64,000 nucleotides of DNA from Ilex aquifolium (Eukaryota > Streptophyta > Magnoliopsida > Aquifoliales > Aquifoliaceae), in NCBI GenBank assembly GCA_951799425.1, contig OX637409.1, forward strand, positions 11,814,960-11,878,959, written 5' to 3'. Below, piece after piece: positions 7,665 through 54,275 of this stretch (positions are counted from its first letter, which is position 1; every line of letters starts with the position of its first letter). Below the pieces are notes generated by a model, which saw nothing but the letters and a program-made list of their open reading frames with translations, was not told the DNA's origin and made no database searches. Made by a program: the position numbers and the translations under genes.

Positions 7665-7870
7665 TTACTTATAGGCGAGAAGGAGGTAAAAGTTTAGACC
7701 CAAGTGTTTAAAGTCCAAGTGAATGCCACAAAATCCAGATGGAAATCCAATCATTCTGTAGCCTGTTTGGGGAATACGTTCGAACGTTGTATGGCGTTCG
7801 AACATGGAGTCCTGTCTTCTGTGATGATTGTTCGAACGCTGACTGGAGTTTGAACGTAATACTCAAGTGG
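7665..7870 (-). promoter_or_regulatory. LTR-D promoter: TATA box with GTTCGAAC palindromes
   Basis: Minus-strand TATA-like CCTATAAGTAA (7665-7674). Upstream lie CGTTCGAACG-type palindromes from about 7777, the first two dyads 18 bp apart, then more to about 7865. One further copy, at about 10201-10210, was separated from the rest by the LTR-B insertion. Confidence 0.8.
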
Positions 7871-7894
7871 CTTTTGTCCTTCTCATGGAATAGC

Positions 7895-10143
7895 TGCAAT
7901 GTAACACCCCGCATTTTCTTTTTTTATATATGTATATAGATATATAGTAAATAATTGTTGTAAAAATGTGGATATATGTAATGATGTAAGAATAAACTAT
8001 ATAGATTGTAATAGTAGGAGAAATGCTAGAGATGCATATGGATTGGGAAGTTAGAGTTTTCAAGACGTTTAAACTTGGAAAGGGTGATTAGATGAATTTC
8101 TAAATATTTTTAGGTCAAAATAAGGTGTCCATTGAATCCGGAAGGTCGCACAACCTTGGGAGAGGTAATATGAGGTGTATTGGAAGTTAGGAAGTATTCC
8201 GGAGTGAAAACACACTTAGAGAAAATTTGGGTAAAAAAGAGTTGGGACACCTTCTAGTATTTTGGTCATAAATTTTTATACTTATATCCAATTGATCTGA
8301 AATTTTGACAGTAGATAGTAGACATCTAGGGCTATAAAAGTGTATCTCATGAAAATTTTCCAATTCGACCTCTAAATGGGTCAAAAATGCCCTAGAAGTC
8401 GACGTAGCCGAAGTGTACCGGTACACAGTACCGGTACGGTACCGTACCGGTACGACTACTCCAGTAGCTTTACCGTACCGATACCGCGTACTGGTACCAT
8501 ACCGTACCGGTACCGTGTACTGGTACGATTGGTCTGATGCTCACCGAACAATAAAAATCGGGATTTGACCATTTAAAACACCCATTTCCACTACATTCTA
8601 CCCCATTCTTACATTTCACTCTCACCCTAAACATTTTAGAACCCTAGGAGAAGATAAAGGAAAGAAGAAAGAGGAGAAAAGAGATCTCTAGATTGGGCTT
8701 TGGATTTTAACTTTGGAATCTTTGATTCAAGGTAGGGGATTTCTTCTCTTTCTCTTACATTGATGTTAGGGTTAATAAATATGTATGTTTTGATTCTTAA
8801 TGATATGTATTTGCTACGACTTCATTGTTTCTTGGTTCTTTTGCAATTGTTAACATGTTTTACACAAAGTTAGGGTTGAATACCCATGAAATCCCTCTTT
8901 TATTTGAAAAACCCTAGTTTTCAAGAGTGATGGGTTTTCCTCTTGAACTCTTCCTTTATTCTTGATTTCAAAATCATAGTGTTTTGTGTTGAGTAATAAA
9001 ATGATATTGTTGTGATCTCTTGCATTTTTCTTGGTTGGTTATTGAAAATGTCACATGCTTAATTTGGGGATTTTGAGATATACTTGTAAATTGTGAAATT
9101 GGGTTTGGTATTGTATCTCTTATGAGTGTGGGATGACCATGGGTGGCCTTTGACGAGATATCGTAGAGTGGGTAGACGTGTTGCTTGCTCCGTGTGGGTT
9201 GGCATGTTTCCTACCACTCGTAGTGGGGTTAGTGCTTTGGTAAGACTAAACTGCTATTGCTCACGGGTGCCGTGTCAGAGGGTTAGTATACTAATACCTG
9301 GGTTGGATACGTCACTGCCATTGGTGTGGCATACGCCCTTCCTAAAGGATGGATATATTTGATAAGATTTGTGTGGGTGTGTGTGGGTTAGATATTACTC
9401 AATGTGTCGATTCATGGGGTGTGCCTTACATCATGTTTGAGATACATATACATATTGATGGATTGTTGTATTATTGTGGAAAATGGTTTCCTACAAGGAC
9501 TTGTGGGAGTATGGGATTCCACAAGGTTTTGTGGGAAAATGGTTTATATTTTGGAAAATGGATATGTATTGGATCTTGGTTTCTTTTACTGTTTATTTAA
9601 ATTACTATTGCTACTTAAAGTTGAGATCCATTTTAAAATGTCCCTGTTTTACTTCAAAGATTATGTATGCTATTTGTAAAATGAGACCGACCATTTTATA
9701 TGTTTTTATAAACCTTGTTCGAGTTTGGAAGGAATGTTGCTACGGAGCTTAGTGCTCACCCCCTACAAATTACATTTTTCAGATACGGTGCTAGAGGAGA
9801 ACCTCGGAGTTGACGAGCAGGGGTATTGGGAGGCCCCATTCGAGGGAAATCTAGATCCTGAGGTGGACATATAGAGATATAACTTCTTTTGCACTAGACT
9901 AGAGAATTTATTTTGAGATCATGTATTGTCTAGTATTCTGTTTATTCCGCTGCTAAGTTTAAGTATAATTCTTTTGGAATGTAATTGCCATAGCTTGGCT
10001 TATTCTTTTGGGATAATATTGTAAATTCTATGGATGATGAATGGAAAAATTTTCTTATTGATGGATTATATTAGTGCTCTCATTATGTAAATGGTTTTAG
10101 AATGTAATGCCGTCTAGAGTGTGTTTTGGGGTGTTACATGCAA
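7895..10143 (+). mobile_element. solo LTR, family B, with 5-bp target duplication
   Basis: LTR 7900-10138 (2239 bp) starts TGTAACACCCC and ends GGGGTGTTACA. TGCAA flanks it on both sides (7895-7899 and 10139-10143), a clean 5-bp target-site duplication inside LTR-D. No internal region remains, so it arose by LTR-LTR recombination. It carries TACCGGTA palindromes at 8415-8525. Open frames inside it (such as those near 9130-9700) have no recognisable domain and I do not call them genes. Confidence 0.92.
8415..8525. repeat. cluster of GTACCGGTAC palindromes in LTR-B
   Basis: Perfect GTACCGGTAC at 8415-8424, 8428-8437 and 8444-8453 (first two dyads 13 bp apart), then a CTCCAGTAG-like linker and further TACCGTACCG/TACCGGTA copies to about 8525. 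A TATA-like CAATAAAAATC lies about 25 bp downstream on the plus strand. Confidence 0.9.
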
Positions 10144-10397
10144 AATGCCTCGTGCCATCACCCTAGCAATCTCCTGGGGGTCCTCAAATAATTCAAGATG
10201 GCGTTCGAACGTGGATGCTTTGCTTCCTCTTCCTCCAATTCTTTTCCAAAACACGTGGGTGTTGCATGAAAGTTTGATGTTTATTGACTTTAGGCCCTTG
10301 TACAATCTTTTTCCTTGAAATGTTATCATTGAAACTCTATCAAAGCATAATTAGTCTTATAAAAGCATAGTAACTTGCTAATTTTAACTATTCATCA

Positions 10398-11857: not shown

Positions 11858-12122
11858 TGATTAGTACAAAATATTACACATCATGTATATATTTGCATTC
11901 CTTTTATACTTGCTTTTTGTGGTGAAAATGGGAGAAAATCCAATTAATCTAACATTTAATGAAGTTTCTGTGTGATTGTAGGTAAAGAGTAGAAAATGGC
12001 TTGAGTTAAGCACCCATCATAGTGCTTAAAGACAATGGAGATGAAGGGGAGACTTAACGGGTGGTTTGGAAGGTGAAAAGATCAAGAAAAGAGCAAATCA
12101 AGTGAAAACCTACCGGTAGGAT
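11858..12122 (+). repeat. truncated 5' LTR-E of element E1
   Basis: Starts TGATTAGTACAAAATATTAC and matches the first part of the 3' LTR at 13067. It breaks off in the palindrome region at ACCTACCGGTAGG (about 12111-12123), after which a GGACGTGGGAAGAGGATGG phrase is repeated several times to about 12195. Confidence 0.85.
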
Positions 12123-12216
12123 GGACGTGGGAAGAGGATGGACGTGGGAAAACCTACATCTCCACACATTTATGACTGGGAAGAGGATGGACGCGGCTTT
12201 GTTGATCTAGGAGTTC

Positions 12217-12735
12217 ATGAAGGAGTTCGCTCAGGCTAGAAAGCCGAATGTGAATCTCCCATTCGCCAATCTAGTCACGAGGATGTGCTATTATAATAAG
12301 GTGAAGACCTATGTCTCGGATGTGCTACTACCCCCTGAATTTGGCGCTATCGGGAAAGCGAGTAGTAGTAAAAGGAAGGCAATGAGTAGGGGGGAGAGAG
12401 CTAGAGCCCCGAGACCTGAGCCATCCTCTACTGGGCCATCTATTTCTGGGTCTTCCACCTCTGTCCCGGTCCGTACAGTTTCACAGTGTTTAGATGCTTT
12501 GGAGGGGATGATGCATTGGATGACCTTGATGATGACTAGGATCTTCGAGCATACTTTTTCGGGCGAGACGATTCCCAGTGTACCTCTGCCTCCTCCGGCC
12601 GGATCTTTTACCTCTGCACCTATGGCTTCTATTGTTGTCGAGGTGGAGGCTTCCGACGATGATGACTCTGGTGACGAAGAGGAGAGCGAGTATGAGAGTG
12701 ATGATGATGAGGCTATGGATGAGGACGAGGAGTAG
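12217..12735 (+). pseudogene. accessory ORF, C-terminal part (element E1)
   Basis: 172-aa plus-strand frame matching the C-terminal half of the accessory ORF of element E (24899-26176): the shared block runs NLPFANLVTRMCYYNKVK, a LLPPE-GTIGK-like block, then a basic Ser/Lys/Arg segment, a Pro/Ser-rich linker, a helix with a Leu/Met pattern (SQCLDALEGMM), and a very acidic tail (DDDDSGDEEESEYESDDDEA). The N-terminal half is deleted. The frame is open to its stop next to the 3' purine tract. The full family looks like the plant retrotransposon accessory proteins usually labelled 'putative plant transposon protein'; its biochemical role is unknown to me. Confidence 0.7.
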
Positions 12736-13053
12736 GATGTTTTTGTTTTTTTTTTGTCCTTTTTGTTTTAGTTTGTACACAGATAGGATTAGAATTGTCG
12801 GCCTAGTAGAAGAGTCTCTAGGATTTTTTTGGCGGTTTTGTTTTGGAATTCTAAATCCTTGTACTAACCTTTTGGAAATGATTAATGAAAAGAACCACAG
12901 TTGTTTCGTTTTAGCTTGCAAGTCCTTTTTTTTTTAATTGCATTGTATTTTTGCATTTTGATTGTTTGCTGATTTACGTGCGCAAATGGATTGTTGTGGT
13001 TTTATATACTTTATGGTTTGGAAATAAAGTTGCTAGGTACTAGCAAAAATCAA

Positions 13054-13066
13054 GTTGGGGGGATGT
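13054..13066 (+). other. polypurine tract of element E1
   Basis: AAGTTGGGGGGAT immediately before the 3' LTR start TGATTAGC at 13067; primer for plus-strand DNA synthesis. Confidence 0.8.
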
Positions 13067-14686
13067 GATTAGCGCAAAATATTGCACATCATGTATATAT
13101 TTGCACCCCTTTTATACTTGCTTTTGTGGTGAAAATGGGAGGAAATGCAATTAATCTAATATTTAATGAATTTTATGTGTGATTGTAGGTAAAGATTAGG
13201 AAAAGGCTTGAGTTATGCCCCTATCATAGTGCTTAAATACAATGGAGATGAAGGGGAGGCTTAACGGGTGGTTTGGAAGGTGAAGATATCAAGAAAAGAA
13301 CAAATCAAGGGGAAACCTACTGGAAGTTTTGCTCACTGGAAGAAAACCTACCGGTAGGTTTTGTCATCGACCTATCGGTAGTTTTTGTCATCGACCTATC
13401 GATAGGTTTTGCTGACACACACCAGAACCTACAACTCAGACTTTAACTGCTTGGGGGGCCCACCTCTGCTTCTCCCACACATCCCCTGACATATTCTACA
13501 TACAAGCATGCCTCCCTACACCTAGGATTGGACTTTGGAAGAAAAAGTATAGAAAAGGAAGAGAGAGAAAGAGAGAGGCATGGTGGGTTGTAGGTTAGGC
13601 TTGTCCTAGCCTGTGCAAGTGTCAAATCACTTCCTATGGATGGGAAGTCTGCTCTCACAGACCATAGGGGGGCTGATGGATGAAAATGAATCATCCTTAC
13701 ACCATTATTCAGCTAGAGAAGCTTTTAGAGAGAGAAGCTCCAAGGAGGAAGACATAGTTTTAGAGAGAGAAGTTTGATTTTTGCATATTCTCACCCATTT
13801 CACTTGTAGTAAGCTGTAATACTCTTGTAATCTTCATTTCTTGGACTTTAATCTCATTTATTTCAAGTGTATTTCAAGTTTAGTTATATATTCTTGAATC
13901 TACCATGTTTACATTTGAGTTTTTCATTTCAAGCTTTTTAGTTGGGTATGAAATGAACTTATCTTTGTAGTTTAACTTTTCTTTGCATTAATACAAGTTT
14001 TAATCTTCATTTCTTTACCATGTCTCATTACATTGTGTATGTCTTTACATCCATTATGAGTAGCTAAGTTTTTAGTTGGCTAATCCAAGAGAGATTTCCT
14101 CTTGGGTATGCTAAATCAACTCTCATTCATTCCCTCTCATAGTGTAAGGTGTTTGGTTTGACATGTTGAGTGCGGACGTGGTTGTGAGCTCTTGATACAC
14201 CGTAGACTTGTCACAGGGTGCTTGAGCCTACATCTTCACATTAGTCCATCACTTCCTACAAATTAATCAAGCACTGAGACACCATTGGAAGAATGTTTTG
14301 AGTTGATTTGACATTCTCATTGAAATGACCTCTTCGGATTAGCCAACCTTGTTTTTATTGCATTTTTATCAAAAACTCCACTCACCAAAACACACAACTA
14401 CAAGATTTTACACTTTTTCATTTCTTTACAAAATCACCTTCACCACAATTCAACATTCCTTCCCTGAGGAGACGACATTGGAATACTCATTCCAAGTAAA
14501 ACACAACACTTGAAAGTCTCTCTTTGCTTGGAGAGCACTTTTGTACACACACATATTTTCATTCACACACACGTTTTCCCCATTTCTAGCATTAAACCCA
14601 AGTGAGAGTGACACTCGCCTACACACATAAGCCATATACACATTCAAGGATTCGTGTTCAGAGATTAGGGTGAACGCAATCAAGCA
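13067..14686 (+). repeat. 3' LTR-E of element E1
   Basis: Complete 1620-bp LTR, TGATTAGC...CAATCAAGCA, close in length to the copies at 22975-24589 (1615 bp) and 58197-59810 (1614 bp). Palindromes of the CTACCGGTAG class lie at about 13318-13410, with dyads 24 bp apart and a repeated GTTTTTGTCATCGAC-like linker. Other LTR-E copies carry a different palindrome at the same place. Confidence 0.9.
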
Positions 14687-15038: not shown

Positions 15039-16719
15039 TCACTCTCTCGCCTCTCTAGAGCCTGAGGGTCTGCCAGCTCCACCTCGCAAAAGATGGAGAA
15101 TCTCCTCTTGCTGACGGAGAATCTCATCTTGCTTTGCATCAATGCCGAGCATGATCTCCCGTAACGTCTGTCGGTCGCTGGTCTCTGTATGGGACTCTGC
15201 ATGGGCCTGCTTAACCTTTATCTCCTCCTCAGTGTCCAAGGCATCTTGAACTTCATCGGTGCCCTGAGCTGGTGGCACATTTTTCCTTGCCGTTGACCCT
15301 CCGCTATGACTTTGGCTTCTTCTAAACGATACTTTATTCAAAAATCTCGTCAGCTTGAGCACCTCCATCTCTGGCCTGACCTGCACTCCCCAATCCATGC
15401 ATATCTCCATCACTAGTGTGCCGAAGGGGAGTGAATTCCTCTTAGCATCGCATCCCTTAATAATTTTAGACAATATCAAAGATGGGAGGTCTATGCTATG
15501 GTTTTTCCCTAGTGCGTATAGCAATCGAGCCATGTCAGGGAGTATCTCATTCTTTCGTCCAATGGGGGCAAAGTTGGAGACGATAATCAAGTTAAGCATC
15601 TTATACTTGTCCGTCACCTCCCCTTGCTTAATGAACGCCTTCCTCCCCATGCAAATGTCAACAAACCCGCTAACTCAACCCCTACCATGTCCAACTCCAC
15701 ATTCTTCCTCGAGGGGTAGCTAGGCCTTGGTACTCGTGGTACGACCCTCAACTCCAAAATAAGATCCTCATCCACGTTGATGTGAGCCCCCCTTACAAGT
15801 TCTTTCACCACATCACCACCATTTCTCAAGTAGCCTCCATGTTAGCCAAAATACTCAATTCCGCAAAATCTGACAATACTACAGTTCGTTCACACTAGGG
15901 GTGCAACTTGGGTTGGGCAACTCGATTTCAACCCGAGCCCAACCCGAAAAAATTAGGGCTTGGGCTAGGGTTTTTAATACTTGGGTTGGGCTTGGGTAAA
16001 AAAACCTCAACCCGAATTCAATTTGGGCCGGGCTCGGGTTGAGGCATCGACAACCCGATTTAAACCCGAACCCGACAAATTAAAAAATAATTTTATATAT
16101 ATAAAGCATTAGCACTTTATTTTTATTTTTACTCCATCGTCCTCTGTTTCTTGTTGCTTGCTATTATGTTATGCATGATTAGTGGTGATTGTGTGATTTT
16201 TTAAGTTTAATGTTTTTATGGGTCTAATTTCTATGTTTTCTGGGATTGTGCTTTGAGATCACTAGTTTTTGGTGTGAAAGCAGATGATCAATAATCGTGC
16301 ACTGTTATGAATGGAATATATGGATTGTTTTATGAATTTGTAATTATTCCCCCCCTCTCTGTCTTTCTTGTAGTGAATCCGAATTCAACCCGAGCCCGCC
16401 CGAATTAAACTCGGGCAGTGCTCGGGTTGAGTTCCTCAACCCGAGGTAGGGTTAGGGTTAGGGTTAGGGTTGAAGATTATATACCTAGGGTTGGGCTAGG
16501 GTTGACTGTCTAACCCGCCCAACCCGCCCAAGTTGTACCCCTAGTTCACACACAATGGCTTGATTTTGAAAAAAAATTTCGTACCTATTAGCTTTGAGAG
16601 CACTGGGCAAGCGAGTGCGATTGTATCTTTGGACCAATGGAGGCCTTCCCTCCCTTTGCTCGATCACCTCCTCCACAAAGTTAGGTTCTTGATTGGGCCG
16701 CCTTTCGCCTAGCGAGCAT
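15039..16719 (-). pseudogene. accessory ORF of element D, interrupted by a MITE
   Basis: Minus-strand frame starting at a basic N-terminus (MLARRKAA, 16719). It has an early stop after 12 residues and then continues FVEEVIEQREGRPPLV up to the MITE at 16543. It resumes after 15888, shifts frame near 15640, and runs MGRKAFIKQGEVTDKY... to a stop at 15039. The C-terminus has an amphipathic heptad-like segment (REIMLGIDAKQDEILRQQEE) that is also in the D2 copy and could form a coiled coil. It shares LPFGTLVMEI-like and MARLLYAL-like blocks with the E accessory ORF but lacks the acidic tail. It sits after pol, where Athila-like elements often have an extra (env-position) gene. Dead because of stop, frameshift and insertion. 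Confidence 0.7.
15888..16551. mobile_element. hAT-like MITE with 8-bp target duplication
   Basis: Element 15896-16543 (648 bp) has inverted ends TAGGGGTGCAACTTGGG / CCCAAGTTGTACCCCTA and is flanked by GTTCACAC at 15888-15895 and 16544-16551. Eight-bp duplications and a TAGGGGTG terminus fit non-autonomous hAT elements of plants. Subterminal regions are rich in CAACCCGA/TCGGGTT repeats. No transposase frame. It splits the accessory ORF of element D. Confidence 0.9.
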
Positions 16720-16947
16720 TTTCATCCTTGGAGGTATTTTTGAATTTTTGGGGTTTTGAGGGCAAGAAAAACTTGGGAATTCTTTGTTAAAATGTAAGAA
16801 ATGAGAAGGAAATGTGGTTTGGATGATTGATTTTGGGTAGAAAGTGAAAGGGGATGGGGTTTGGAGGCTTGGGTAGTGAAGAGGCGAGCTAGGGTTTGAA
16901 GAACTTGAAGGGTTTTAGGCGTTGTGATCTGGAGAAGACGAACCAGG

Positions 16948-17262
16948 TATTTATACCCAAGCAGCCAACGTTCGAACATTATTGATGTTCGAATGATGAT
17001 AGAAGGAATTTTAAAAGAAGGTTTGAACGTTAAACTGTCATTTGAACGAAAGTTGCTCCCAGTACTTTTGATGTCCTGCAGAAATCAAAGTACTGTAAGC
17101 TCCTCTAGTTCGAACATGAAAATGGCGTTCGAATGTGGGATCCTAGTTCAAACGTTGATCAGGCGTTCGAACTTGACGTGCTCTCAGTATTTTGGTGTTG
17201 GTGCAGAGATCAAAAAGTACTATGAGCTCCTACCGTTCGAACGTTATATGGCATTCGAACAC
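16948..17262 (-). promoter_or_regulatory. candidate promoter of accessory ORF D with GTTCGAAC palindromes
   Basis: Minus-strand TATA box (GGTATAAATACC, core 16948-16955). GTTCGAAC at 16970-16977 is 15 bp upstream of it, followed by more GTTCGAA(C/T) copies at about 16988, 17109, 17127, 17165 and 17233-17262; several pairs have dyads 17-19 bp apart. Between them lie CAGTACTTTTG...CAAAGTACTG inverted repeats (about 17058-17097). The ORF start is about 230 bp downstream. The palindrome is the same class as in this element's own LTR. Confidence 0.75.
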
Positions 17263-17702
17263 CAAAATAAAAATCAAAATTTATACACATTTATATACAC
17301 ATATTAAGAGAAGACTATATGCACCAATTGAACTTGGAGAATCATGGCGTCTCTGGATAAGTCCTTACCTACGCTACAACTTCGTTGGTATTTTAGGACA
17401 TTCCTTACTTAGCCCACATCTTTATTTCAACTAAAAAGACTTTGTTCATCTACTAAAAAGGAATATTTACACTTTTACAAAATGAGTTCGGACCATTGGC
17501 TTTCATCTTAAAAACATTCTTTTTTTTTTTTTTCAGTTTTGTCAAAATAAAAATAAAAATTATAATCCGAGTCTTGCCTTGTCTCCATGTCATTTGAACT
17601 ATCAGAGACTCTTCCAATTTCTTGTCGCACATAACGTGTAAGTACAAGACTAGAATGGCGTCTCAAGAAAATCCTTACTTTGCCATACACTATCCAGGCT
17701 AA
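17263..17702 (-). other. non-coding internal sequence of element D
   Basis: AT-rich stretch between the small zinc ORF and the accessory-ORF promoter. The phrase ATGGCGTCTC is repeated near 17344 and 17655, each followed by a CCTTAC-like stretch; the same region in D2 (about 54551) is similar. No gene seen. Confidence 0.45.
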
Positions 17703-19454: not shown

Positions 19455-19848
19455 ATATATGTAAAACCCAGGTAAATTTGAACTTTGATGAAAAAGGGCA
19501 AAACGGTAAATTGCTATTCCGGTATAGGTTGAAAACCTATATTTTTCTAGAACTCGGATGACAAAACGGACCTCACTTTTGGATTCGTCTTGCGAAATCT
19601 AGTTACCTTGTCAAATTTCGTGGAATTCTGAGATAGTCGGATTTTTGGCGTTTTACGAGGCGGCCGGGCCTCGGGTAACCCAAAAACAAATTTTTTAATA
19701 AAATTTTAAAGTTTGGAAAATAAATGAAGGCAAGTTAAAATAAAAATATTTTAAACTTGAACCGGAGAGAAATTTAATCGTTTCGGGGCGAAAACGGACC
19801 CGAAAAAAGAGGGTCGTGTGGCGCATTGTGGACCAAGCAATTAAAGGG

Positions 19849-19881
19849 TATAAATAGGGGAGAAAATATGATTTTCTCCCC
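19849..19881 (+). promoter_or_regulatory. LTR-A core promoter: TATA box plus 11-bp inverted repeat
   Basis: TATAAATA (19849-19856), then GGGGAGAAAAT-ATG-ATTTTCTCCCC (19857-19881), a perfect inverted repeat that fills the space between the TATA box and the expected transcription start. Confidence 0.75.
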
Positions 19882-21473
19882 ATTTTCTTCAGACGGTTCC
19901 AACGTCAGAAAGAAGGGAGGGAAAAAGGCTTGAGTTCTCCACCTTCTCTCTACGATCTACGGTGATTGGTTGCTCGAATAAACTCAAGCCAAGAACAAAG
20001 ATTGTTCTACGCGTCGAGGGCTACAAAACCATACCAAAAAGGACGGATTTCACCGAAGTTCCAAAAACGAGCTTGGAGAAATCAAGGGTTTTGGGCGAGA
20101 TTGAGGTTCTTGAAGGCTTCTACCAAGTGGGTTTACGCTTCGAGAGGTAGGGTTCCCTCCTAATTAAGTTCACTTACAACCTAGAATGTTTGTATGAAAT
20201 GGGTAGGTGGTTGGATAATCTTAACACTTGCCTATTGTGATGAAATTGGTGAAATGGGTATGGAAAATAGGTAAAATAAAGTCCATTTCGAATTGGATAT
20301 ATGAGATTGACCTAATGTGATCCTTGAGTTATGTGATTTGTGGACATGTTGTGTGTTACATTATGCCTTGATGAATTTAGCATGTTGATAGCATGATTAT
20401 GTGATAACGTGCTTGGAAATTGTGTTGTCTGAAATGTTGATATATACATACTTGTGATATGTTGACATTGATGGATTATGAAAATTATATGCTTTAATAT
20501 AATTGCCCATGGAATGCGTTGAAATAGTTCATATGTCATTCATAGCATATTGAACATTGTGTCATTATTGCAATGAGGCATCATATTGCATATGCACGGA
20601 AACATCGCATTTTGTGGGTGTGTGTGCATGGTTGTTGTTAACACCACACTTGGTGGATGACGGGTGGGCTTGAGTAAGCTTGGTCGAAGACCTGGCCGAG
20701 TCTCACAGTTTGCATGGTTAGTAGGGTTGAAGTTAGCAAGAAGGGCTAGAAGATCCTTCGGGTGCAAGGCCCGGTGATTGTGATACGCACTCCCTTGGTT
20801 CGGCCCATGAAGTGTGTGGGTGTACGCGGAACCCTCGGTGGAAGTTCGTAAATTCCGTGTGGGTTGGGTGACCCTGGGTGTAAGTCCATGAACATCCACC
20901 CCTACAAAGACCCTAGATTGGTAAATGTCATTTGATGTGTAACATAGATGACGGATTCATACACATTGGCACTTGCATGTGTTGAGGAGCCGGGAAGGGC
21001 TCGGGTTGATGTGCGTGAGTGAGTCTCATCACATTTCATGGCATGGTACGGTAGATTTCAACATGGAATGCATATTCTAAATTGGAATGTTATGAGTTGT
21101 TGATTGTTGGCATGTGAACATTTCATATTCATCTAGGTTGGGGAGTAGCCTCTTTAGGAGATACTCTATTGAGCGTGGCTCACCCAACACGAGAAAAACA
21201 TTTCAGGTGCGGGATATACGCTGGTGGATGGCTCCCAATTCGAGCCTCGTGGATGAAGAAATCCGGAATGTGGATTTATTTTGAGTTTTTGTAAAATTAT
21301 TATGAAAACTTAGTTTTGGCATGTAAATATATGGAATTGCTTGAAATAGGTATTGTACATAGCATGTTTTATATGAAAAATTTCTTTAAACATGTATGAG
21401 ATGGTTTTGGAATGGAATTGATGGGATTGGAAATTGAAAACAGGTGAAACCGACAAAATTGGGTAAGGTGTAC

Positions 21474-21540
21474 CGGTAGAGCATACCGGTACAACGTGGT
21501 CCAGTAGGCACAACGTACCGGTACTCCATACCGGTACGCT
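21474..21540 (+). repeat. GTACCGGTAC palindromes in solo LTR-A
   Basis: Two pairs of TACCGGTA-type palindromes, each pair with dyads 13 bp apart, separated by GTCCAGTAGGCACAACG. A TATA-like GTTATAAATGG follows at about 21609. Confidence 0.88.
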
Positions 21541-21829
21541 TTCCAAAAAGCTGAAATTTTAAAACTGTTTTGCCAAGCTTTTGGGCTATGTGTTTCCTCC
21601 CTTCAAATGTTATAAATGGACAATAATAGACTACCAATGGTGGTATGTTGGACCTCGGACGGGTCAACCGATTAAAAGTTTATAGACTTTGTTTTTCTTT
21701 TATAATCCCGGTCAAGGGTATGCTATTGACGTGATGTCGGGTTGTGCGATAATCACGGGTACTTCCGCAGGTTGATGGGTTATCAATGGTTAATAAAGGA
21801 TCCCCCGGTTTTAGGGGCGTCACAATATA

Positions 21830-22690: not shown

Positions 22691-22816
22691 TTTGGACATT
22701 AGCCTCCTCATTCTCAAAGTTATCACCGGCATCCTCGAGTGGGTCTTGGTCAATATTCATATTGGGGCCTAAAGGTCGCCTAACCAATCTATTTTGGTCA
22801 TCCCATCCCCACATAC
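22691..22816 (-). pseudogene. gag: gag N-terminal fragment, E type
   Basis: Minus-strand start MWGWDDQNRLVRRPLG continuing NIDQDPLEDAGDNFENEEA up to NVQ, then the abrupt junction to element D RNase H. It matches the gag start of element E (34008) nearly base for base and ends at the same nucleotide as the deletion there. Its leader and primer site (22817-22974) point to the LTR-E at 22975 as its 5' LTR. Confidence 0.8.
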
Positions 22817-22974
22817 AAAAGAAATATCTACAATTGAAAAGAAATGAAAATAAAAGTATACACAAGGAACAATGTACCTCAGCCCATGATGAGAATTCAT
22901 GGGACTTACCCCCGTCGTCCGAAAATCACCATCTCAATTCAACGCTTTGCTTTCTTCGTCAATGACGCCAAAAA
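22817..22974 (-). other. leader and decayed primer site of the gag fragment
   Basis: Matches the leader of element E at 34009-34168. The primer site next to the LTR reads GACGCCA on the plus strand, a mutated tRNA-Asp type site (GGCGCCA expected). Confidence 0.75.
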
Positions 22975-24589
22975 TGCTTGACTTTATTCCGTCGTTCCTA
23001 ATTTCTGAACATGAACCCTCAATGTGTATATGGCTTATGTGTGTGGGCGAGTGTCACTCTCACTCGGGTTCGCTGCAAGAAATGAGAAAACGGGTGTGAA
23101 TGAACAAAATGTGTGTGTGTGTACAAAAGTGCTCCCCAAGCGCATAGAGACTTTTGAGTGTCGTGTTTTACTTGGAAATCGTATTCCAAGGTCGTCTCCT
23201 CAGGGAAGGAGGTGAATCGTTTTAAAGGTGATTTTGGTGAAAAAGGGAAAATGTAAAAATCTTTGATGTTTGAGTTTAGTGATATGTGTTCTTAATAAAA
23301 AGGAAATGGAGCAAGTGTTGGCTAATCTGAAGAGGTCATTCCAATGGGAATGCCAAATCAACTCAAGACCTTCCTTCAATGGTGCCTAGATGTTTGATTG
23401 ATTCGTAGGAAGCGAGGGACTAAAATAGAGGTGAGGATTCAAGCATACCCCGTGACAAGTCTACAGTGTATCAAGAACTCACAACCACGTCCACACTCAA
23501 CCTAGTCAAACCAAATCATCGTACACTACGAGGAGGAATGAAAAAGAGTTGATTTAGCATACCCAAGAGGAGTTCTCCCTTGGATTAGCCAAATTAAAGC
23601 TTAACTACTCATACTTAATGTAAGAACATAAATGAAGTAAAGAGACATTGTAAAGCAATGAAGATTTGAACTTGAATTAATGCAAGAAAAGTCAAAATTG
23701 GAAGAAGTGCATTGAATACCAATATTAAAAGCTTGAAATGTAGAAGACTTACTACAACAATAATAGAATCCAAGATACTCAACTAAACTTGCAATGTACT
23801 TGAAGTAAATGACATTAAAGATAATAAATGAAGCTTACAAGAGTATTCAAGAAGATTACAAATGAAATGGATGGAAGAAATGCCAAAATCTAAACTTTCT
23901 CTCACTAAAACTATATCTTCTTCCTAGAGCTTCTCTCTCTATAATGTAATACAATTTGAATAATCTGTAATGAATGATGCATTTTCGTCCATGGAGCTCT
24001 CTCCAGGTGTGTGACAGGCTTCCCATCAAAAGGGGGTTAACTTGATGGCTTGGGCAGACTAGGACAAGCCTAGCCTGCAACTCCCTTCACTTGCCTCTTC
24101 TCTCTCTTCCTCTTCAATACTTGAGCCTCCAAAGTATAACATGAGGTGATGGGAGGCTTGTATGTGTGTAAGAGATGTCAGGGGACAAGTGGGAGAAGTG
24201 TAGGTGGGGTTCCCAAATGGCAGAACTTGAGTTGCAAGCTGTCTGGGCATTCTGGGCAAAACCTAACGGAAGGTCGATGCAAACCTTTCAGAAGGTTTTT
24301 GGCAGTGAATAGGTAGACCAAGTGTAAACCTTCCGGAAGGTTTTCATCCAAATTGCATTTTCCTTGGTTTCTTCACCCTCCAATCCATCCTTTAAGCTAT
24401 CCCCTCATCTTCATTGACTTTAAACATTACGATGGGAGCTTACTCAAGCCTTTTACAACATTTTCACCTACATTCATACAAAACTTCATTAAAGAGAAGA
24501 TTAAACGCAATTCTCCCCAAATTTACAACAAAAAACAAGTACAAATGGGCATAACAACATACAATATATGCAATGTTTTGTGCTAATCA
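22975..24589 (-). repeat. LTR-E shared by two elements
   Basis: Complete 1615-bp LTR (plus-strand view TGCTTGAC...GTGCTAATCA). To its right is the purine tract of element E, so it is E's 3' LTR. To its left are a primer site and gag leader, so it is also the 5' LTR of the gag fragment at 22691. It includes CTTCCGGAAG-class palindromes at 24256-24341. Confidence 0.88.
24256..24341 (-). repeat. CTTCCGGAAG-class palindromes in 3' LTR-E
   Basis: One decayed pair (CCTAACGGAAGG and CCTTTCAGAAGG, dyads 22 bp apart across GGTCGATGCAAA) and one perfect ACCTTCCGGAAGGT near 24328-24341. Confidence 0.85.
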
Positions 24590-24898: not shown

Positions 24899-26176
24899 CT
24901 AATCATCGTCCTCATCAAAGGCATCCTCCTCCTCGGACTCAGTCTCCTCATCCTCGTCGTCGTCGTTGTCGTCCACCTCTACAGTAGTAGAAGGTATAGG
25001 AGCAGCGGCCGATGGTCCAGCTGGAGGCTGCGGAGGTCCATCGGGGATGGGCTCACCCGGGAATGTATGCTGGTATAGCCGCGTCACCATCACCGACAGC
25101 TCATGCATAGTGGACTCTAGTGCGTCCATACGCTGTGACATGGTACGGGCTGGGGAAGATGCAGGAGGTGCTGAAGTGGATGGCCCTGTTGGCTCTGGTT
25201 TTGATGCCCTGGATCTCTCTCCCCCAGTCCTGGAAGCCCTCTTGCTGCTGCTTGACTTCCCGATGGTTCCTGTCTCCGGGGGCAGCAGAGTATAGTAAGC
25301 ATAGGACTTCACCTTGGCATGGTTGCATAGATGGGTGACCAGACTGCCAAAGGGGAGATTCGCCTTTGGCTTTGCGGCCTTGGCGAATTTCCTCATCTCC
25401 TCAAAAATCAAATACGCTACATCGATTGCCACCCCCGTCATGAATACGTGGAGGAGGGCCAACTTCTCTATGTTCGGGCTCTTCTCCGAACCCCGAGGCA
25501 TCAAATTGTAATGTAACACCTTGTTTATAACCCCGTAAGCATGCTTGAGGCCCCCGACAATGGTTGTCCCCTTAAAGGTGGTCGGGTCCTTATAGGTGAG
25601 CCCCACATAGTCTGTGATAGTCCTACCCCCTTCCACGTTGTGTGGGTAGACCGGGGTAGTCGGGGGAGGCCTCTCATACCCCATCACTGTGGTAATCGTG
25701 TCAGGGGTCACCTCGAAGGTCTTCCCCCGCACGTTGGTCCTCAACCTACCCCCATCCTCACCAAACACAGTCAATTTCATGTAAAACTCTCTGCATAACC
25801 CCAGATTATAGCCCTTCACCTCGTGAAACCACAGACTCAACCCACGTGCCTCAATTACTTTCACAACTTCATCGTTCGGCCCAAGATAAATCCTATCCAC
25901 GTATCTCTTGCACGTGATATTTTTCTCCTCTATTCGTTGTCTCCGTGCATCATGCCTCACCTTAGTCCTCCCCTCCTCCCTATCTTGGCTACTTGGGCCC
26001 TCTCCGCCCCTTTTGCAGGAGCTCGTGCCCTTAGGTGGTGGGGAGTCCTGGCTTGTCCTCTTGGTGCGGGCCATGAGGGACAACAGTGCCCCAACACCGA
26101 GGATGGTCAAAATCCACATCATAACCCATTCGACGGGCTCAACCATGTCAAGAGATGCCTTTACCAATCGAGCCAT
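24899..26176 (-). CDS. accessory ORF of element E, intact
   Basis: 425 codons open on the minus strand; the likelier start is the second Met at 26074 (390 aa), because the first 34 residues look like leader and the second start gives a basic N-terminus, MARTKRTSQDS. Order: basic/Ser-rich N-terminus; a conserved domain (about residues 90-300 of the long form) with RYVDRIYLG, REFYMKLTVFG, MGYERPPPTTPVYPHNV, YNLMPRGSEKS and LPFGSLVTHLCNHAKVKSY; a Ser/Lys/Arg stretch; a Pro/Ala linker; a short predicted coiled coil (MDALESTMHELSVMVTRLY); and an Asp/Glu tail. It resembles plant 'putative plant transposon protein' ORFs. The basic N-terminus and acidic tail would suit a nuclear chromatin- or DNA-associated protein; that is inference. 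It is the only long undamaged gene of this element. Confidence 0.75.
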   Translation of the reverse strand: MARLVKASLDMVEPVEWVMMWILTILGVGALLSLMARTKRTSQDSPPPKGTSSCKRGGEGPSSQDREEGRTKVRHDARRQRIEEKNITCKRYVDRIYLGPNDEVVKVIEARGLSLWFHEVKGYNLGLCREFYMKLTVFGEDGGRLRTNVRGKTFEVTPDTITTVMGYERPPPTTPVYPHNVEGGRTITDYVGLTYKDPTTFKGTTIVGGLKHAYGVINKVLHYNLMPRGSEKSPNIEKLALLHVFMTGVAIDVAYLIFEEMRKFAKAAKPKANLPFGSLVTHLCNHAKVKSYAYYTLLPPETGTIGKSSSSKRASRTGGERSRASKPEPTGPSTSAPPASSPARTMSQRMDALESTMHELSVMVTRLYQHTFPGEPIPDGPPQPPAGPSAAAPIPSTTVEVDDNDDDEDEETESEEEDAFDEDDD

Positions 26177-26640
26177 AACAAGGGAGTTTAGAAATTTGAA
26201 GGGGATTAAAAAGGACTTGAGGATTTGGGGGAACTTGGAGACCTAGGGTTTCTTTGAAGAATACTCAAGATTTTTGGCAATAACCACTCAAAATCAAGAA
26301 AATATATGAGAATCTAGGGCTTTGGTGAAGCGCGTTTGATCTTGGAAGAAGTTTGAGGGGGAGCAGAGAGTTTGGAATCTTAAGATTGAGGGAAATGTGA
26401 AGGGTTTCTAAAAGAAATTGAACTTAAAACCCTTGTTTTTAGGCTTCTGGGCAAGACCTTCCAGAAGGTCAATCAAAACCTTCAGGAACGTTTTGCACAC
26501 TACTGAGGTACCACTGTCCAGTAGGCAAAACCTTTCGAAAGGTCGATCAAAACCTTTTGGAAGGTTTTGCACACTAGACAGAACCTTCCGGAAGGTTTAT
26601 AAACAAACCTTCCGGAAGGTTTTGCCTTTGCTGCAAAACA
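26177..26640 (-). promoter_or_regulatory. upstream region of accessory ORF E with CTTCCGGAAG palindromes
   Basis: Minus-strand region in front of the accessory ORF. Palindromes of the ACCTTCCGGAAGGT class lie at 26456-26625: three pairs, two with dyads 22 bp apart (linker GGTCAATCAAAA or GGTCGATCAAAA) and one 24 bp apart. GTCCAGTAGGCAAAACC separates the first two pairs. A weak TATA-like CCTAAAAAC lies just downstream near 26440. The palindrome class is the same as in this element's LTRs. The 26177-26440 part would be 5' UTR. Confidence 0.75.
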
Positions 26641-40628: not shown

Positions 40629-42357
40629 GTCAATGCTTGGTCAAAAACATTGTTGTTCCTAACCTCTTAATATCATCCCTTAATGTGCATATGATTTATA
40701 GTGTGTAGGGGAGTGTCACTCTCCCTTGGGATGATGTCAAAAGAAAGGCAACAAAATGGTTGTAATGAAAATGGAATGAAATGTACAAAATGTGTGTGTG
40801 GTGAACAAAAGTGCTCCTCAAGCGCAATGAGTCTTTTGAGTGTCGTGTTTTACTTGGAAAAGTATTCCAATGTCGTCTCCTCAGGGAAGGAAAGGTCAAG
40901 TGTGTGAAGGTGATTTTGTCAAAAAGGAAAAATGTAAAATCTTTTGTTTGAGTTTTGGTGTTTGAAGTTTGTGAATGAAAATACAATAAAAACAAGTGTT
41001 GGCTAATCCGAAGGGTTCATTCCAATGGGAATCCCAAATCAACTCGAAGCCTTCCTCGAATAGAGCTTAGATGAACGATTGATTCGTGGGAAGCTAGGGA
41101 CGAAATGGAGGTGAGGATCCAAGCATAACCCATGACCAAGCCTATGAGATATCAAAGACTCACAACCGCATCCACTCTCAACCCAGTCAAACTGAACCAT
41201 CGTACTCTGAGAGGAGGAAAGAAAATGAGTTGAAATGGCACACCCAAGAGGAGGTCTCCCTTGGATTAGCCAACTTAAAATCTAGCTACTCATAATAAAA
41301 GACAAGACATGCATAATGTAAAAAGACATGTAAAGGAAATGGAAATGAAAATAAGATGAAAATGAAACTTAGAACTTGTATTAATGCTAGGAAATGGTAA
41401 ACTACAAAGAGAAGTTCATGTAACACTAAAATGGAAAAGTAGCAGAGAAGACAATTGAAACCCATCAAAGATTATGGAAATGCAAGAACATTGAATTAAA
41501 CATGGTTACATTAGAATTAAAAGAGATTACAATGCAAGAAATAAAGATTACAGGAGAACTACAACTTACTGCAATGAAATGGGTGAAGAAAATGCAAAAA
41601 CATGAATTTTATCTCCCTAGCACTATTCATCATCTTCCGCCCTGAACTACTCCTAAGCTTAGGTAGCCACCCCCTTTATCCTGTGTGTATGTTGAATATC
41701 TTTTTTTTCTTGGACTTGGCTTTCCAAAAATGTGCTTGGAGAGGTGCCCTAGACTCCAGAAGTGACCTCCATCTGTAGGGGTGCAGGAGGAATGGGCTGG
41801 ATAGAGGGGTTGCAGAGCTTGTCTGCACACCCAGCTCCTCTTCTCTTCTCTCGCCTCATTGATTACCTAGGCTCCAAACTTGCAATCAAGGGTGTGAAAG
41901 GGGTGAATAGTGTTGTGGGCGTGTCAGGGGAGCATGGGAGGTCTGTTGGTGGGAACCTCAAAGCAGCAGACATGAGTTGCAGATCATTTGGGCAGATCAG
42001 GCAAAGCGTATCGGTACGCGTACCGGTTTGTCGAACTCCAGTGGCTTCAGCGTACCGGTACGCATACCGGTACGCTGAACTCTAGTATCCTTAGCGTACC
42101 GGTACGGTTTGGCTGACTTCCTGATTTTCTGATTTCCTCTTCTCCTGAGCTATCCCCAAGCTACATTTTCATCCTCATTTGTCTCAAATGGTTTGGGAAG
42201 GCCTTAAGAAGCCTCATTTAGCACCTTTTAACTGCAAACACCAAATATCATTGTTAAGAACTCAATTAACCCAACTTCCATCATTTAATCTCCAAAAACA
42301 ATTAAAATAAGATGATTAGCACATAAAAATATACAAAGTTTTGTGCTAATCAGTCAA
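40629..42357 (-). mobile_element. solo LTR-E with 5-bp target duplication
   Basis: LTR 40634-42352 (1719 bp; plus view TGCTTGG...GTGCTAATCA), flanked by GTCAA at 40629-40633 and 42353-42357. Its palindromes at 42003-42108 are of the GCGTACCGGTACGC class, with pairs 12 bp apart and CTCCAGTGGCTTCAGCG / CTCTAGTATCCTTAGCG linkers. Confidence 0.93.
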
Positions 42358-43294: not shown

Positions 43295-43752
43295 TATTTA
43301 TAGACAAGGAGGAGGAGACAAGAGGGGGTGAAAGAATAGTGTATGCCGCCCAAGTCCAAGTGAAAGCCAACTACTCTGCAGCCAGTTTATGGAGAACGTT
43401 CGAACGTGAGTTGGCGTTCGAACATTGCCTCTGTTTTTGTTTTATGGGCGTTCAAACGTTTCTTCTGTCTTTGCATTATGGGCGTTCGAACGCCAGATGT
43501 GGTCTGACCTTCTCACTTAAGTGGCCAGTGGTCATCTGTGAAGTTCATTTCCACACTCTATGCAGTATTCTGGTCCTCAATCAAGTGGACGTTCGAACGT
43601 GAGTTGGTGTTCGAACATGAGTTGGTGTTCGAACGTGGTACTCAAGTGTCTCAGAGTCTTATTTCTTGGCTGCAACACGCCTTTTCTCAGCAGTCAGGTC
43701 TACTCACAATTCAAGTGGACGTTCGAACGTGAGTTGGCGTTCGAACGTTCTT
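43295..43752 (-). promoter_or_regulatory. LTR-D promoter with GTTCGAAC palindromes
   Basis: Minus-strand TATA box TATAAATA (43295-43302). GTTCGAAC-type palindromes lie at about 43398-43425, 43444-43492, 43589-43636 and 43722-43750. Most adjacent dyads are 18 bp apart with the linker GTGAGTTGG or a close variant. Confidence 0.82.
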
Positions 43753-43942
43753 GCAGTGCTCCAAGCTTTTCCAATTTTGTTCCCTAATATGCTGGTGTTA
43801 CATTCAAGTGTGATACTTGTTGTTCTTGAGTCCTTGTTCATTTTAGGACCTGAAGTGACATCACTTAAACTCCATCAAAGTACAATTAGTCTCAAAAAGG
43901 CATAGTAAAATGCTAATTTTAAGTACTAATTAGAGGGTACAT

Positions 43943-46861: not shown

Positions 46862-48358
46862 TGACGTGATTTATGTCATACACCAAAGTTTAAGTGGTTA
46901 AATTGCAGTATTTGTCGGTTTAAGTCCGAGGTCGAACCCATAGGGAGCTAACTATCTGGATTCAAAGCAAAAATGGTGAAATTGTCGTGAATGTAGTGTG
47001 CAATGCGACAACTTGTGGTGTGAGCTTAGAACAATCAAATAAACACTTAATTAAACTTTGAAAGACAATAATAAAAAGTACTCCTCAGTTCGGAGATCCA
47101 ACATGTATTATATTTTTTAGTTATTGGAAATGCCACCTTACAACAATTAACTCCCATTTTGCTGAAAAGTTAATTGGTAGGTTCGATGTATATTGAACCA
47201 TAACACAACAACAGATTAGGTTAGCCAGAAGGTCTCTGTACCATGCATCAATCAAATAACCCTAATCAACTAGAAGGTGAACCATTCAGAAGGTTTACCA
47301 CAGTTATTCAATCGGCAGGTTGATGATTCAGTGATGACCGAGTTCCAGTTTATGCATTGACTATGACAAGATTTAACCTATCTATAACCAATCTCCCGAC
47401 TGTTACATAAAGCCCAACTACGTACATCACTGTATCATCCATGAAGTACGTAATAAGTATAGATAGTATGGTATATAGCATTAAGTACTGCTCGATGTTC
47501 ATAACCATGAGCATATTATAAATATAACAATCCATCAATTAAGGGAGGTATAAACATTAAAACATAAGTAAAACATCGGCATTTTCGTGACATAAACAAA
47601 ATTACACACGTATTCACCCTTCACCGAAGAGTATAAACGAAATACTCATGCCTCATTGCTATAGACGAGCAAAAGGAGTGATGTAATCTCATTACAATCG
47701 AAACAAAATACAAAACAAATCCTTCCCCAAGGAATAGCTAAAACACGACCACTCTTATCACCTGTTAAGGCACAAAAGTGGGAGAGGTTCAACCCTCCAA
47801 ACAGAAAGGATAAACAGAAATGTATAAGTGGAGACAATTCTGGCTGGAACTGATTCTGGAAGGGCCTTGCTCCTCCTTTCCTCTTTTTCTATCCTTCCCT
47901 CTATCATTGACTGAACTCTGGGCGAATCCCTTGAAAATGAAGCTGGGAGGGCTATTTATAGGCATTGGAGGGACCTATTAAGGTGGCAGACTCTTGGTTG
48001 ACCAATCAGATGAATTTGCAGCTTGTTTGGACCAATTGGAAGAGGAGAGAGAACTAAGGCGGTTTAGGACCGTCCGGGCACCACCACCACCATCTGGATG
48101 GTGGCTTTTATCTGGTTCTTGCATGGCTGGCTGCTCCTTGCTTTAATGTATTAACTTGATAATTGAACTTCCCTTCCCTTCCTCATTTAGCTTGTACACT
48201 TTATTCCTCTTGACTTCCCGTATTTTCGCGCAAAACCTTGCAAAATTTCAAACTTACGCATTAACCCTAATTCTTCATAACTAAATCATTTTAACCTAAT
48301 TCACGTGCACAATTAACTTTAAAACCTAATTCATTAACGCATTATTTAGGGTTAATCA
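46862..48358 (-). repeat. 3' LTR of element D2
   Basis: 1497 bp; on the minus strand starts TGATTAACCCTAA at 48358 and ends ...ATCACGTCA at 46862. Weakly similar to LTR-D at its 3' end. The purine tract (plus CACCCCCAATC) follows at 48359. Confidence 0.8.
47952..48112 (-). promoter_or_regulatory. LTR-D2 promoter with GTCCGGAC-class palindrome pair
   Basis: Minus-strand TATA box CTATAAATAG (47952-47961). About 110 bp upstream is the pair CCGTCCGGGC / CATCTGGATGG (48070-48107), dyads 20 bp apart with an ACCACCACCACC linker. Confidence 0.72.
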
Positions 48359-52192: not shown

Positions 52193-52928
52193 GGCTCGGT
52201 CAACTTGACGGGTTTAAGAAAAGAATTTATACTCTTAGGCTCAATCATGGCTTACTAGAGATATAATTTTGCAAAAGAAATGACTAAGGCACAAAATTAA
52301 ATCACAAATGACCAAAGATCATTTTTCAGAAATCATATACCTGCATAATTTCCAATTAAAAATTTAAGGAAAATGTTAACCATGTTATTCAATAACTACT
52401 AACCAAAACAAAACTAATGAGATTATTCAAATAAATTTTACCGCTGAATTGAAAATTCTTAATTGAGTAAATGTGAAATATCTCTCCAAGGAGGATTGGC
52501 TAAAAATCTGCAATAGGGTTTACATCTCCACCATATATATGAGCATAATAAAAGAGTGTAATATTTTAGAAGGTTTTCAAAATAAGAAATTTTTACGTGC
52601 CCAAAAGAATGAGTTTTTAAGAAAATATAGAAAGAGTGCACAATCAATGTATGAAAATTCTGCGCAATCGGGTTAGGGTTATCCCTACAAAGCATAAGAA
52701 TAATAATCTAATTCTTAACGTGAATCATATGAAATACGTATCCTAACACAACAAAATTTAATAGAACAATAAACTAACTATATTAATCAAAACCAATTCC
52801 AAAACCATTATACAAAACATAAAAACTGAAATTAAAGTGCATAAATAAAAATTTTAGTAAAAGTAGCAAAAGTGTGGAAATTTCAGAGTCTTGGGTCACT
52901 AGGCTGATGGGCCTCCACAATATTGTCC
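52146..52928 (-). other. non-coding sequence of element D2 with AT microsatellite
   Basis: Continues the D2 internal region after the solo LTR. (AT)n at 52154-52189. No coding frame; resembles 11400-11850 in element D (GACTCAATCATGGC-like phrases). Confidence 0.55.
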
Positions 52929-54009
52929 TCACAGTAGCCTCACAATCTCATTCTGGTTCTCATCGTAGCTAGTTATTCTTTGATCGAGCTGGGTGATGTT
53001 GGTCTCCAACCCTAACAGAATCTGACGGGTGGACCTGTCATCAATTGGAATGTATGGCTGCTCCTCTTGTTGTTGAGACTCTTCCGGTGGATGAAAATCT
53101 GCACCTCCCTGGAATGGATCTTCTTGTGGTGCCGGTGGTGCCTCCTGTTGCTCATCGAGCTGCCCTCCATGGCTCTTTATCAACGACGTCTTATCTAACG
53201 GTGCCAAATGCTCCACTATTAGCTATAAGGGATCTGCAATAACTCCTTTCTCCCTGCATAACTCAGATACTAACACGACAAATGGGAATGAGGGCTTCTT
53301 AAGTTTCATAGTCAGCATCATTTGGTTTGTGATCAAGTTGGGCAAATCGATGGTGTGTTCCATTCCAAAGGCATAAAAAAATTACGTTCTGTTAGTGTAA
53401 ATTTGATTTTTCTGGGATTGAGGCAAAAGATTATTCACTGTTATCAAGTTCAGGATTCTATACTTGTCAGTCAAGTCCCCTTGCTTAATATACTTGTTTG
53501 GCCTATACATATTCCGGGTTCCCAATCAATTCAATCCCAATAACAGTCATATCAGGCAATGCAATATAGGGATATTGTGGGTATTGATATCTGGATCGGA
53601 TTCAAAAAATTTGCGATGGTAGTCGATGTAACTTGGAACACCACCCCCCAACATAAACTCAAAACTGTATTGGCCCAGTTTCTTTAGCATTACAATAAAA
53701 TTCACGGACCAAACATTCATAAGCAGGACCAACCAATTTAACGTAATTAAGCCACCCTCGTACAACTAAATTCTGTCTCACCCCTATATGTTCGAAGTCC
53801 TCATATATAACAAATCGTTCAGCAATGATAGTTTTGGAATAACAATAACTGTCATACCAGACTTGCTGATCAATGTTCTCAAACATCACAACATCGAAGA
53901 CATTTTGTCTCTGAGGTTGTTCTTGCTGCTGTGGGGGTGCTTAAGATGGTGAAGTGGCTCCTTTCCATGCTCGGATCGATGAAGCTCTTGTTCTTTTCCT
54001 AGGATCCAT
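52929..54009 (-). pseudogene. accessory ORF of element D2
   Basis: Minus-strand frame starting MDPRKRTRASS (54009), a stop near 53941, then a Gln/Pro linker, FDVVMFENIDQQVWYDSYCY, RFVIYEDFEHIGVRQNLVVR and LVREFYCNAK, frameshifts between about 53240 and 53660, and a C-terminal part (53216-52929) with a Gln/Pro/Glu-rich linker and a heptad-like end (RQILLGLETNITQLDQRI). The C-terminus matches the accessory ORF of element D. The FYxN block in mid-protein and the basic start agree with the E copy. Function unknown; inactivated. Confidence 0.65.
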
Positions 54010-54220
54010 GAATTCTTTGATTTCATGCTAGAAAAGAGCTTTCAAGAAATTTCAATCGGTAGTAACCTGTAAAAGGTTATGGGTAAGTGTTTAATCAGAA
54101 TAGAATTCAAGAAAAGTGGATGGGTGAAACAAATATGAGGAGATAAGATAAAGAAGCTGCTAGATTTTCATATTTCTACTGCGAGAGAGATGCTGAAACT
54201 GTCCAGTTCACGCCTATCTA

Positions 54221-54275
54221 CTTTTATACTGGGTAGTACTGTCTGGATGCCACCACCACTGTCCGGAATTTCCTT
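54221..54275 (-). promoter_or_regulatory. candidate promoter of accessory ORF D2 with GTCCGGA palindrome pair
   Basis: Minus-strand TATA box AGTATAAAAG (54221-54230), directly preceded by the pair CTGTCTGGATG / CTGTCCGGAAT (54239-54270), dyads 20 bp apart with a CCACCACCA linker. Same class, spacing and linker as the LTR-D2 pair at 48070-48107. The ORF start is about 210 bp downstream. Confidence 0.72.

Follow-up and report, generated by a model that had tools for sequence, protein, structure and literature searches.

Matched palindrome arrays in the long terminal repeats and ahead of the accessory genes of Athila-type retrotransposons in Ilex aquifolium

Why would a retrotransposon carry one class of palindrome both in its long terminal repeat (LTR) and in front of its accessory gene? 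The question arises from a 64,000-nucleotide stretch of Ilex aquifolium DNA (assembly GCA_951799425.1, contig OX637409.1, positions 11,814,960 to 11,878,959; hereafter, the window), which is made up of nested LTR retrotransposons and comes from an 800 Mb assembly. Three minus-strand Athila-type elements (E, D and D2) have an accessory open reading frame (ORF), in sense, ahead of the 3'LTR, and a first-pass annotation had noted that the palindromes in each LTR match those before the accessory ORF of the same element. We confirmed this observation and found that it extends past those three elements. An array in a D-type 5'LTR lies beyond what had been noted, as does the presence of these palindrome classes in chromovirus-type LTRs.

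Element E has the Athila (Ty3/gypsy) layout of gag, protease, reverse transcriptase (RT), RNase H and integrase, then the sense accessory ORF and the 3'LTR: a gag-type ORF at 33777-33274, RT and RNase H at 31964-30261, integrase at 29705-28731 and the PF20167 ORF at 26176-24899, adjoining its own 3'LTR, which starts at about 24593. The LTR starts are consistent with the Athila lineage, as are the primer sites, which we take to be Asp-type. D and D2, too, are each a single element from accessory ORF to 3'LTR, because the insertions that separate the two or split the LTR have perfect 5-bp target-site duplications (TSDs; CTGAG for K12, TGCAA for S8 and AAGGG for T49). The K12 duplication was confirmed by another D-type element, whose K12 insertion site is empty (L066, G000:C2:28170801-28172001, about 220-245). 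From their domain matches, the three accessory ORFs are identified as PF20167 (Transposase_32) genes, the Athila 3' accessory ORF (3'aORF); PF20167 was found in all three, with the D and D2 pieces scoring under Pfam's whole-protein cut-off.

24899-26176, minus strand: accessory ORF of E, intact, 425 amino acids; PF20167, E = 2.6e-26, residues 110-289.
15039-16724, minus strand: accessory ORF of D, broken; PF20167 piece at 15039-15674.
About 52902-54008, minus strand: accessory ORF of D2, broken; PF20167 matched by two pieces.

The palindromes were labelled as class E (CTTCCGGAAG), F (GTTCGAAC), A (GTACCGGTAC), A2 (CTACCGGTAG) and G (two TCCGGA-like sites, 21 bp apart). Three classes are strongly enriched in the window relative to 200 dinucleotide shuffles: GTTCGAAC occurs 19 times (shuffle mean 0.6, maximum 3), CTTCCGGAAG 16 times (mean 0.03, maximum 1) and TACCGGTA 17 times (mean 0.3, maximum 2). 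CG-centred palindromic 8-mers number 74 against a shuffle mean of 27 in total, and 52 of the 74 are GTTCGAAC (19), TACCGGTA (17) or TTCCGGAA (16), the top count for any one word in the 200 shuffles being 7. Clusters of these three words are pure, with no mixing among them. The classes differ by small steps: outward from the centre the half-sites read GGAAGGT (E), GGTAGGT (A2), GGTACg (A) and GAACgt (F), and hybrid units that join an E half to an A2 half are present in the LTR T2 and the deleted element K12 (both below). GTCCGGA alone is not enriched (5 in the window; shuffle mean 1.6, maximum 6), and it also stands singly in both D-type LTRs (6688 and 40367) and elsewhere in the window. The paired form TCCRGA-N15-CCRGAC, defined after the sites were seen, occurs at three window places only, namely the D2 LTR, the D2 promoter and a D2-like LTR at 35946 (4 rows over both strands, shuffle mean 0.01). 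A linker word, YACTGGA, recurs between the palindromes of the window's E, A and A2 arrays (TACTGGA: 6 in arrays, 2 elsewhere in the window; CACTGGA: 3 and 3).

Counting decayed units with up to two mismatches, we located the following arrays in the LTRs and ahead of the accessory ORFs (hereafter, the putative accessory promoters).

26438-26640, minus strand: accessory promoter of E, class E (CTTCCGGAAG); 2 exact units (26585, 26609) and 4 decayed, spacings 24, 31, 22, 52 and 22.
35405-35650, minus strand: 5'LTR of E, class E; 5 exact CTTCCGGAAG units (35449-35599) and 2 decayed.
24235-24350, minus strand: 3'LTR of E, class E; 1 exact CTTCCGGAAG unit (24330) and 2 decayed.
16960-17270, minus strand: accessory promoter of D, class F; 4 exact GTTCGAAC units (16970, 17108, 17165, 17235) and 6 decayed, with TATAAATA immediately after.
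7770-10225 (7770-7890 and 10203), minus strand: 3'LTR of D, class F; GTTCGAAC at 7778, 7796, 7830 and 10203, split by the solo LTR S8.
43385-43755, minus strand: D-type 5'LTR, class F; 8 exact units (43398-43739) and 1 decayed, with TATAAAT about 80 bp downstream.
54241-54267, minus strand: accessory promoter of D2, class G pair, TCCGGA-N15-CCAGAC.
48072-48098, minus strand: 3'LTR of D2, class G pair, TCCAGA-N15-CCGGAC.
35946-35972, plus strand: D2-like LTR fragment, class G; intact pair TCCGGA-N15-CCGGAC at the homologous LTR position.

In E, D and D2 alike, the palindromes of 3'LTR and accessory promoter agree in class and spacing, in D2 through one half-decayed pair. The class shared within D stood, with four exact GTTCGAAC sites at each place, as did that within E, where exact CTTCCGGAAG occurs once in the 3'LTR, five times in the 5'LTR and twice in the promoter. 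For D2, the GTCCGGA pair that had been reported at both places survives in the degenerate form TCCRGA-N15-CCRGAC; exact GTCCGGA was found once, in the promoter (54261), and not in the LTR. The classes do differ between the three elements, being E, F and G. A match of three distinct labels has an exact permutation probability of 1/6, and independent draws from five Athila LTR classes give 0.008.

Across the host genome, window included, 26 of the 27 scorable Athila elements match (19 E/E, 6 F/F and 1 G/G). Twelve genome stretches were taken for a class E site, and the three with an accessory ORF (L032-L034) were all E/E. Accessory ORFs were also sampled directly: there were 7,058 first-look candidates, the 99 most E-like were scored, 75 of these were near-full, and 20 were drawn evenly; because the scored candidates were the most like E, this sample represents E's clade. 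Fifteen of the 20 were E/E (some on one exact plus one-mismatch units), four paired a class E LTR with a fetched upstream piece lacking any array, and one had an LTR interrupted by a chromovirus LTR bearing F sites. Ten D-type promoters were selected by their F site; eight had a D-type ORF downstream, five were unscorable, and the five with a findable LTR start all had class F in the LTR, with 1 to 5 exact units each. Class-A promoters ahead of the core element CAAGGGTTTTAA numbered two in the genome and none in the control. The second of these elements, which has a D-type LTR inside its ORF, was left out of the count, as were an A2-class promoter ahead of a truncated element without an LTR (L067), a D-type integrase followed by an F array and an F LTR with no accessory ORF seen (L045/L046), and an Athila pol whose LTR has a class E array, with no accessory-ORF match and no second array (L037). 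An apparent E/F mismatch (L098/L099) was dropped because the F sites belong to an S8-family chromovirus LTR that interrupts its LTR. A label shuffle over 26 elements gave 2e-7, a figure that ignores kinship and the class-based choice of sites.

Beyond the three elements first noted, further Athila LTRs in the window carry TACCGGTA arrays.

11858-14686, plus strand: K12, a deleted Athila element (LTR start, C-terminal part of the accessory ORF, LTR), TSD CTGAG; class A2 LTR array at 13315-13415, spacings 31, 24 and 24.
40634-42352, minus strand: L42, Athila-type solo LTR, TSD GTCAA; class A array at about 41995-42115.
58197-59810, plus strand: L58, Athila-type solo LTR, TSD AAAGG; class A array at 58446-58497.

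The classes also have their own spacings. The closest distance between unit centres was 22 in class E, 12-13 in A and 17-18 in F over 12 window arrays from all three contexts, and 17 of 100,000 label permutations did equally well (spacings <40 bp only; class G, K12 and the lone unit at 10203 left out; in L42, two 6-bp steps that an overlapping, off-frame scan window had produced were merged by hand). An array of 16 exact class-A units elsewhere in the genome (in L036) has the same 13/16 steps. The position of the arrays is promoter-like. GTTCGAAC-N8..38-TATAAATA has 271 genome matches against 55 for the reversed control, and the gap from GTTCGAAC to TATAAATA was 14 nt, or that plus one 17-bp step, in 78 of the 100 places listed (hand count, some places twice). 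The core element CAAGGGTTTTAA, with two mismatches allowed, was found in 14 of 20 upstream pieces from relatives of E; palindrome units precede it in 13 of the 14, with a gap of 22 in ten and 44 in two (one value, -5, is a stray CAAGGGTTTTAA match). An array with TATAAATA or CAAGGGTTTTAA ahead of the accessory ORF is a candidate promoter of that gene.

The same classes occur in four chromovirus-type LTRs of the window.

1537-5417, minus strand: T2, Tekay-type LTR; class E array at 1774-2160.
19460-21824, plus strand: T21, Tekay-type solo LTR, TSD ATATA; class A array at 21471-21538.
7900-10138, plus strand: S8, chromovirus-type solo LTR, TSD TGCAA; class A array at 8415-8526.
62608-64000, minus strand: R63, S8-family LTR; class F array at 63851-63974, at the matching place; chromovirus-type integrase just past the window.

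They were filed as probable chromoviruses by their LTR ends, the form of the primer site and the kinship of integrases, and S8, being a solo LTR, by its ends and its homology to R63. The primer site adjoining T2 is presumably Met-type. Integrases akin to the window's SH3_Tf2-1 ORF lie beside R63 and between two T21-like class-A LTRs. In the S8/R63 family a single LTR position is occupied by class A in one member and by class F in the other. At the corresponding place, two further Tekay-type LTRs of the window lack a palindrome array. In a Tekay-type LTR at 61890-62061, a 21-bp non-palindromic tandem repeat stands where T2 and T21 have palindromes, so the slot ahead of the core promoter is variable. 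Some repeats that had looked like a new family turned out to be Tekay-type LTRs. Elsewhere in the genome, a T21-like LTR with 16 exact GTACCGGTAC units is nested in a T2-like LTR with CTTCCGGAAG sites (L036, G000:C1:25285000-25294999, 7104-7407).

One module is near-identical in the two lineages. CCTTCCGGAAGGTCCA has 1,690 exact matches in the genome and none when reversed; among its first 30 places (all on contig C1, many paired in one LTR), 27 are flanked by T2-like sequence (16 LTR places) and 3 by Athila LTR sequence. In the Athila LTR of L032 the module is identical to that of T2 at 221 of 237 linker bases (93%) over 437 bp, and the flanking LTRs are unrelated, which points to a recent transfer. 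Sequence at the upstream edge of the T2 module is similar to that of Athila LTRs, which makes the direction Athila to Tekay appear likelier than the reverse. Such a module would be regulatory DNA moving between unrelated retrotransposon lineages within one genome, and through its transfer one element could come to exploit the activator of another.

What, then, might read the arrays? We consider the PF20167 protein the likeliest reader, in a foamy-virus-like circuit of two promoters, and give this reading a probability of about 0.45. The array would be a promoter-proximal activating sequence whose paired palindromes suit a sequence-specific dimer or tetramer; here we infer both the binding and PF20167 as the binder. 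The LTR copy would drive genomic RNA, and the second array would stand before a PF20167 gene transcribed from its own promoter. The protein would thereby close an autoregulatory loop, with the effect of activating both promoters or keeping them unsilenced. Its binding specificity would drift by small half-site changes (GGAAGG, GGTAGG, GGTACG, GGACGG, GAACG), and both site sets would have to follow. Chromovirus LTRs would have captured Athila array modules and would therefore respond to the same factor; the arrays look like a switch built by one element and borrowed by others. A wider proposal, somewhat short of even odds in our judgement, is that PF20167 proteins form a large family in plants that activates retrotransposons, or counters their silencing, in a sequence-specific way. 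Their specificity for paired palindromes would drift stepwise and force LTR and accessory promoter to follow, and chromoviruses would parasitise them through captured Athila modules, so that unrelated retrotransposons come to share regulatory classes.

Several results weigh against the PF20167 protein as reader. The sites extend beyond elements with the accessory ORF, because chromovirus-type LTRs carry the same classes, and a class-A chromovirus to the right of the window (L046/L047, class A in both LTRs) gave no accessory-ORF match. The sole exception among the 27 scored elements is a class-A element with promoter sites and no array in the first kilobase of its LTR. The proposal that one factor reads both sites of an element thus gains from the match in class and spacing, and loses from the chromovirus-type LTRs and from this exception. 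Of the 14 window arrays tested, only 6 have a TATA-like word in the ~260 bp that follow, and an AlphaFold2 model of the accessory protein, built on a 4-row alignment, is too poor (mean pLDDT, a per-residue confidence score, 41) to reveal a DNA-binding fold. Class agrees with ORF clade in the E, D and D2 clades, the one class-A element having no LTR array. These are only three independent clades, with no within-clade class switch scorable, so the between-clade test is weak (1/6). The first-pass annotation had held that the two site sets change together and had suggested a genome-wide test of the association; the match in class and spacing in 26 of 27 elements supports this in part, across three clades.

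Copying is a further point against. In 12 of 15 elements of E's family, the LTR and promoter arrays have more linker sequence in common than in any shuffle, so the match in this family is partly inherited through copying, and D's own LTR and promoter have one near-identical pair unit in common. In L032-L034 the linkers of the two arrays are no more alike than shuffles and bear no trace of copying from their own LTR, which suggests that here the sites themselves have been maintained rather than freshly copied. The annotation had named promoter arrays that are recent gene-conversion copies of the LTR as one result that would undo its claim; L032-L034 speak for the claim, and E's family in part against it. 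That an array was copied once per clade from LTR to promoter (or back) and homogenised by conversion or template switching, with no factor needed, strikes us as improbable. We rate it as very improbable that the palindromes are nucleic-acid structures or methylation targets (CG and CCGG) and not activator sites: a CG stands in the middle of every class, and in several decayed units it has undergone a C-to-T or G-to-A change, but such a role needs no exact classes, class-specific spacing or fixed distance ahead of core promoters.

A doubtful but serious contender is that host transcription factors of differing palindromic specificity read the arrays, so that one class co-activates both promoters and unrelated elements exploit the same factors. 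The shared classes and spacing of Athila and chromovirus-type LTRs, and the class-A chromovirus without an accessory-ORF match, speak for this, and TCCGGA resembles what we take to be motifs of plant LOB-domain factors. On the other hand, five classes separated by small half-site steps, each with its own spacing and in single-class arrays, fit a drifting binder better, and we know of no one host family that covers TTCCGGAA, TACCGGTA and GTTCGAAC. Host factors do bind the U3 BII boxes of Tnt1, according to the available text of PMC3316501.

PF20167 was placed in the Athila 3'aORF, and related to ATHILA ORF1 (PF03078), in the accessible part of a sunflower study (PMC11728184); Athila accessory ORFs are usually termed env-like and have no demonstrated function in the portions available of PMC7264820 and PMC11728184. 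The E accessory ORF had no significant match among 7,996 candidates scored from a protein database, and its single PDB match by sequence was non-significant (E 1.9). Viral-contig searches yielded no relative; one match, in a contig rich in TTCCGGAA, was taken as chance. By eye, the E (24902-24982, minus strand) and K12 (12637-12732, plus strand) accessory proteins have a strongly acidic C-terminal tail, which could be an activation domain, and the C-terminal part of the D protein has a coiled-coil-like end in its place. From its second candidate start (26071-25900, minus strand) the E ORF begins MARTKRT, which we take to resemble the histone H3 tail, ARTKQT.

Searches limited to the open-access PMC literature found no matching prior work. 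The closest circuit is that of foamy virus Tas (Bel-1), where, in the accessible text of PMC7390438 and PMC4929722, an accessory gene near the 3' end has an internal promoter and one factor acts on both this promoter and the LTR, forming a positive loop. The Tas sites of the two promoters are barely related, as far as the available part of PMC7390438 describes them, whereas the Ilex elements have one palindrome class at both. The VANC proteins of VANDAL transposons, as described in the part of PMC5735166 available, show that plant transposons can evade silencing through motif arrays and a matching protein: the short-motif arrays lie in non-coding DNA, are family-specific and turn over as tandem repeats with the matching protein. 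VANC21 motifs are nine bases long, in one orientation and in DNA transposons (same source), whereas the Ilex sites are paired palindromes in LTR retrotransposons and are shared with families without the gene. VANC has already been set beside LTR-retrotransposon accessory ORFs in the discussion of a sunflower paper (PMC12844716, available part). In Tnt1, U3 boxes bind defence-induced factors and the LTR promoter is under silencing, but these are host factors, and the accessible text of PMC3316501 mentions no second set ahead of an accessory gene. Grande gene23 and Retand TRP28 likewise lie between pol and the 3'LTR, Grande's with its own promoter and TRP28 as a predicted DNA binder, but they are antisense and have another domain, and no matched LTR sites are mentioned in the portions available of PMC7264820 and PMC11963269.

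Athila elements reside in centromeres in Arabidopsis. If the accessory protein reads its own LTR and promoter, Athila elements would carry a self-activation switch, and the sites described here offer a direct test. A last observation concerns the region after E's 3'LTR (22691-22970, minus strand), where a primer-site-like stretch, a leader and a gag start are followed by the RNase H of another Athila copy; the junction is tandem or recombined rather than a simple insertion.

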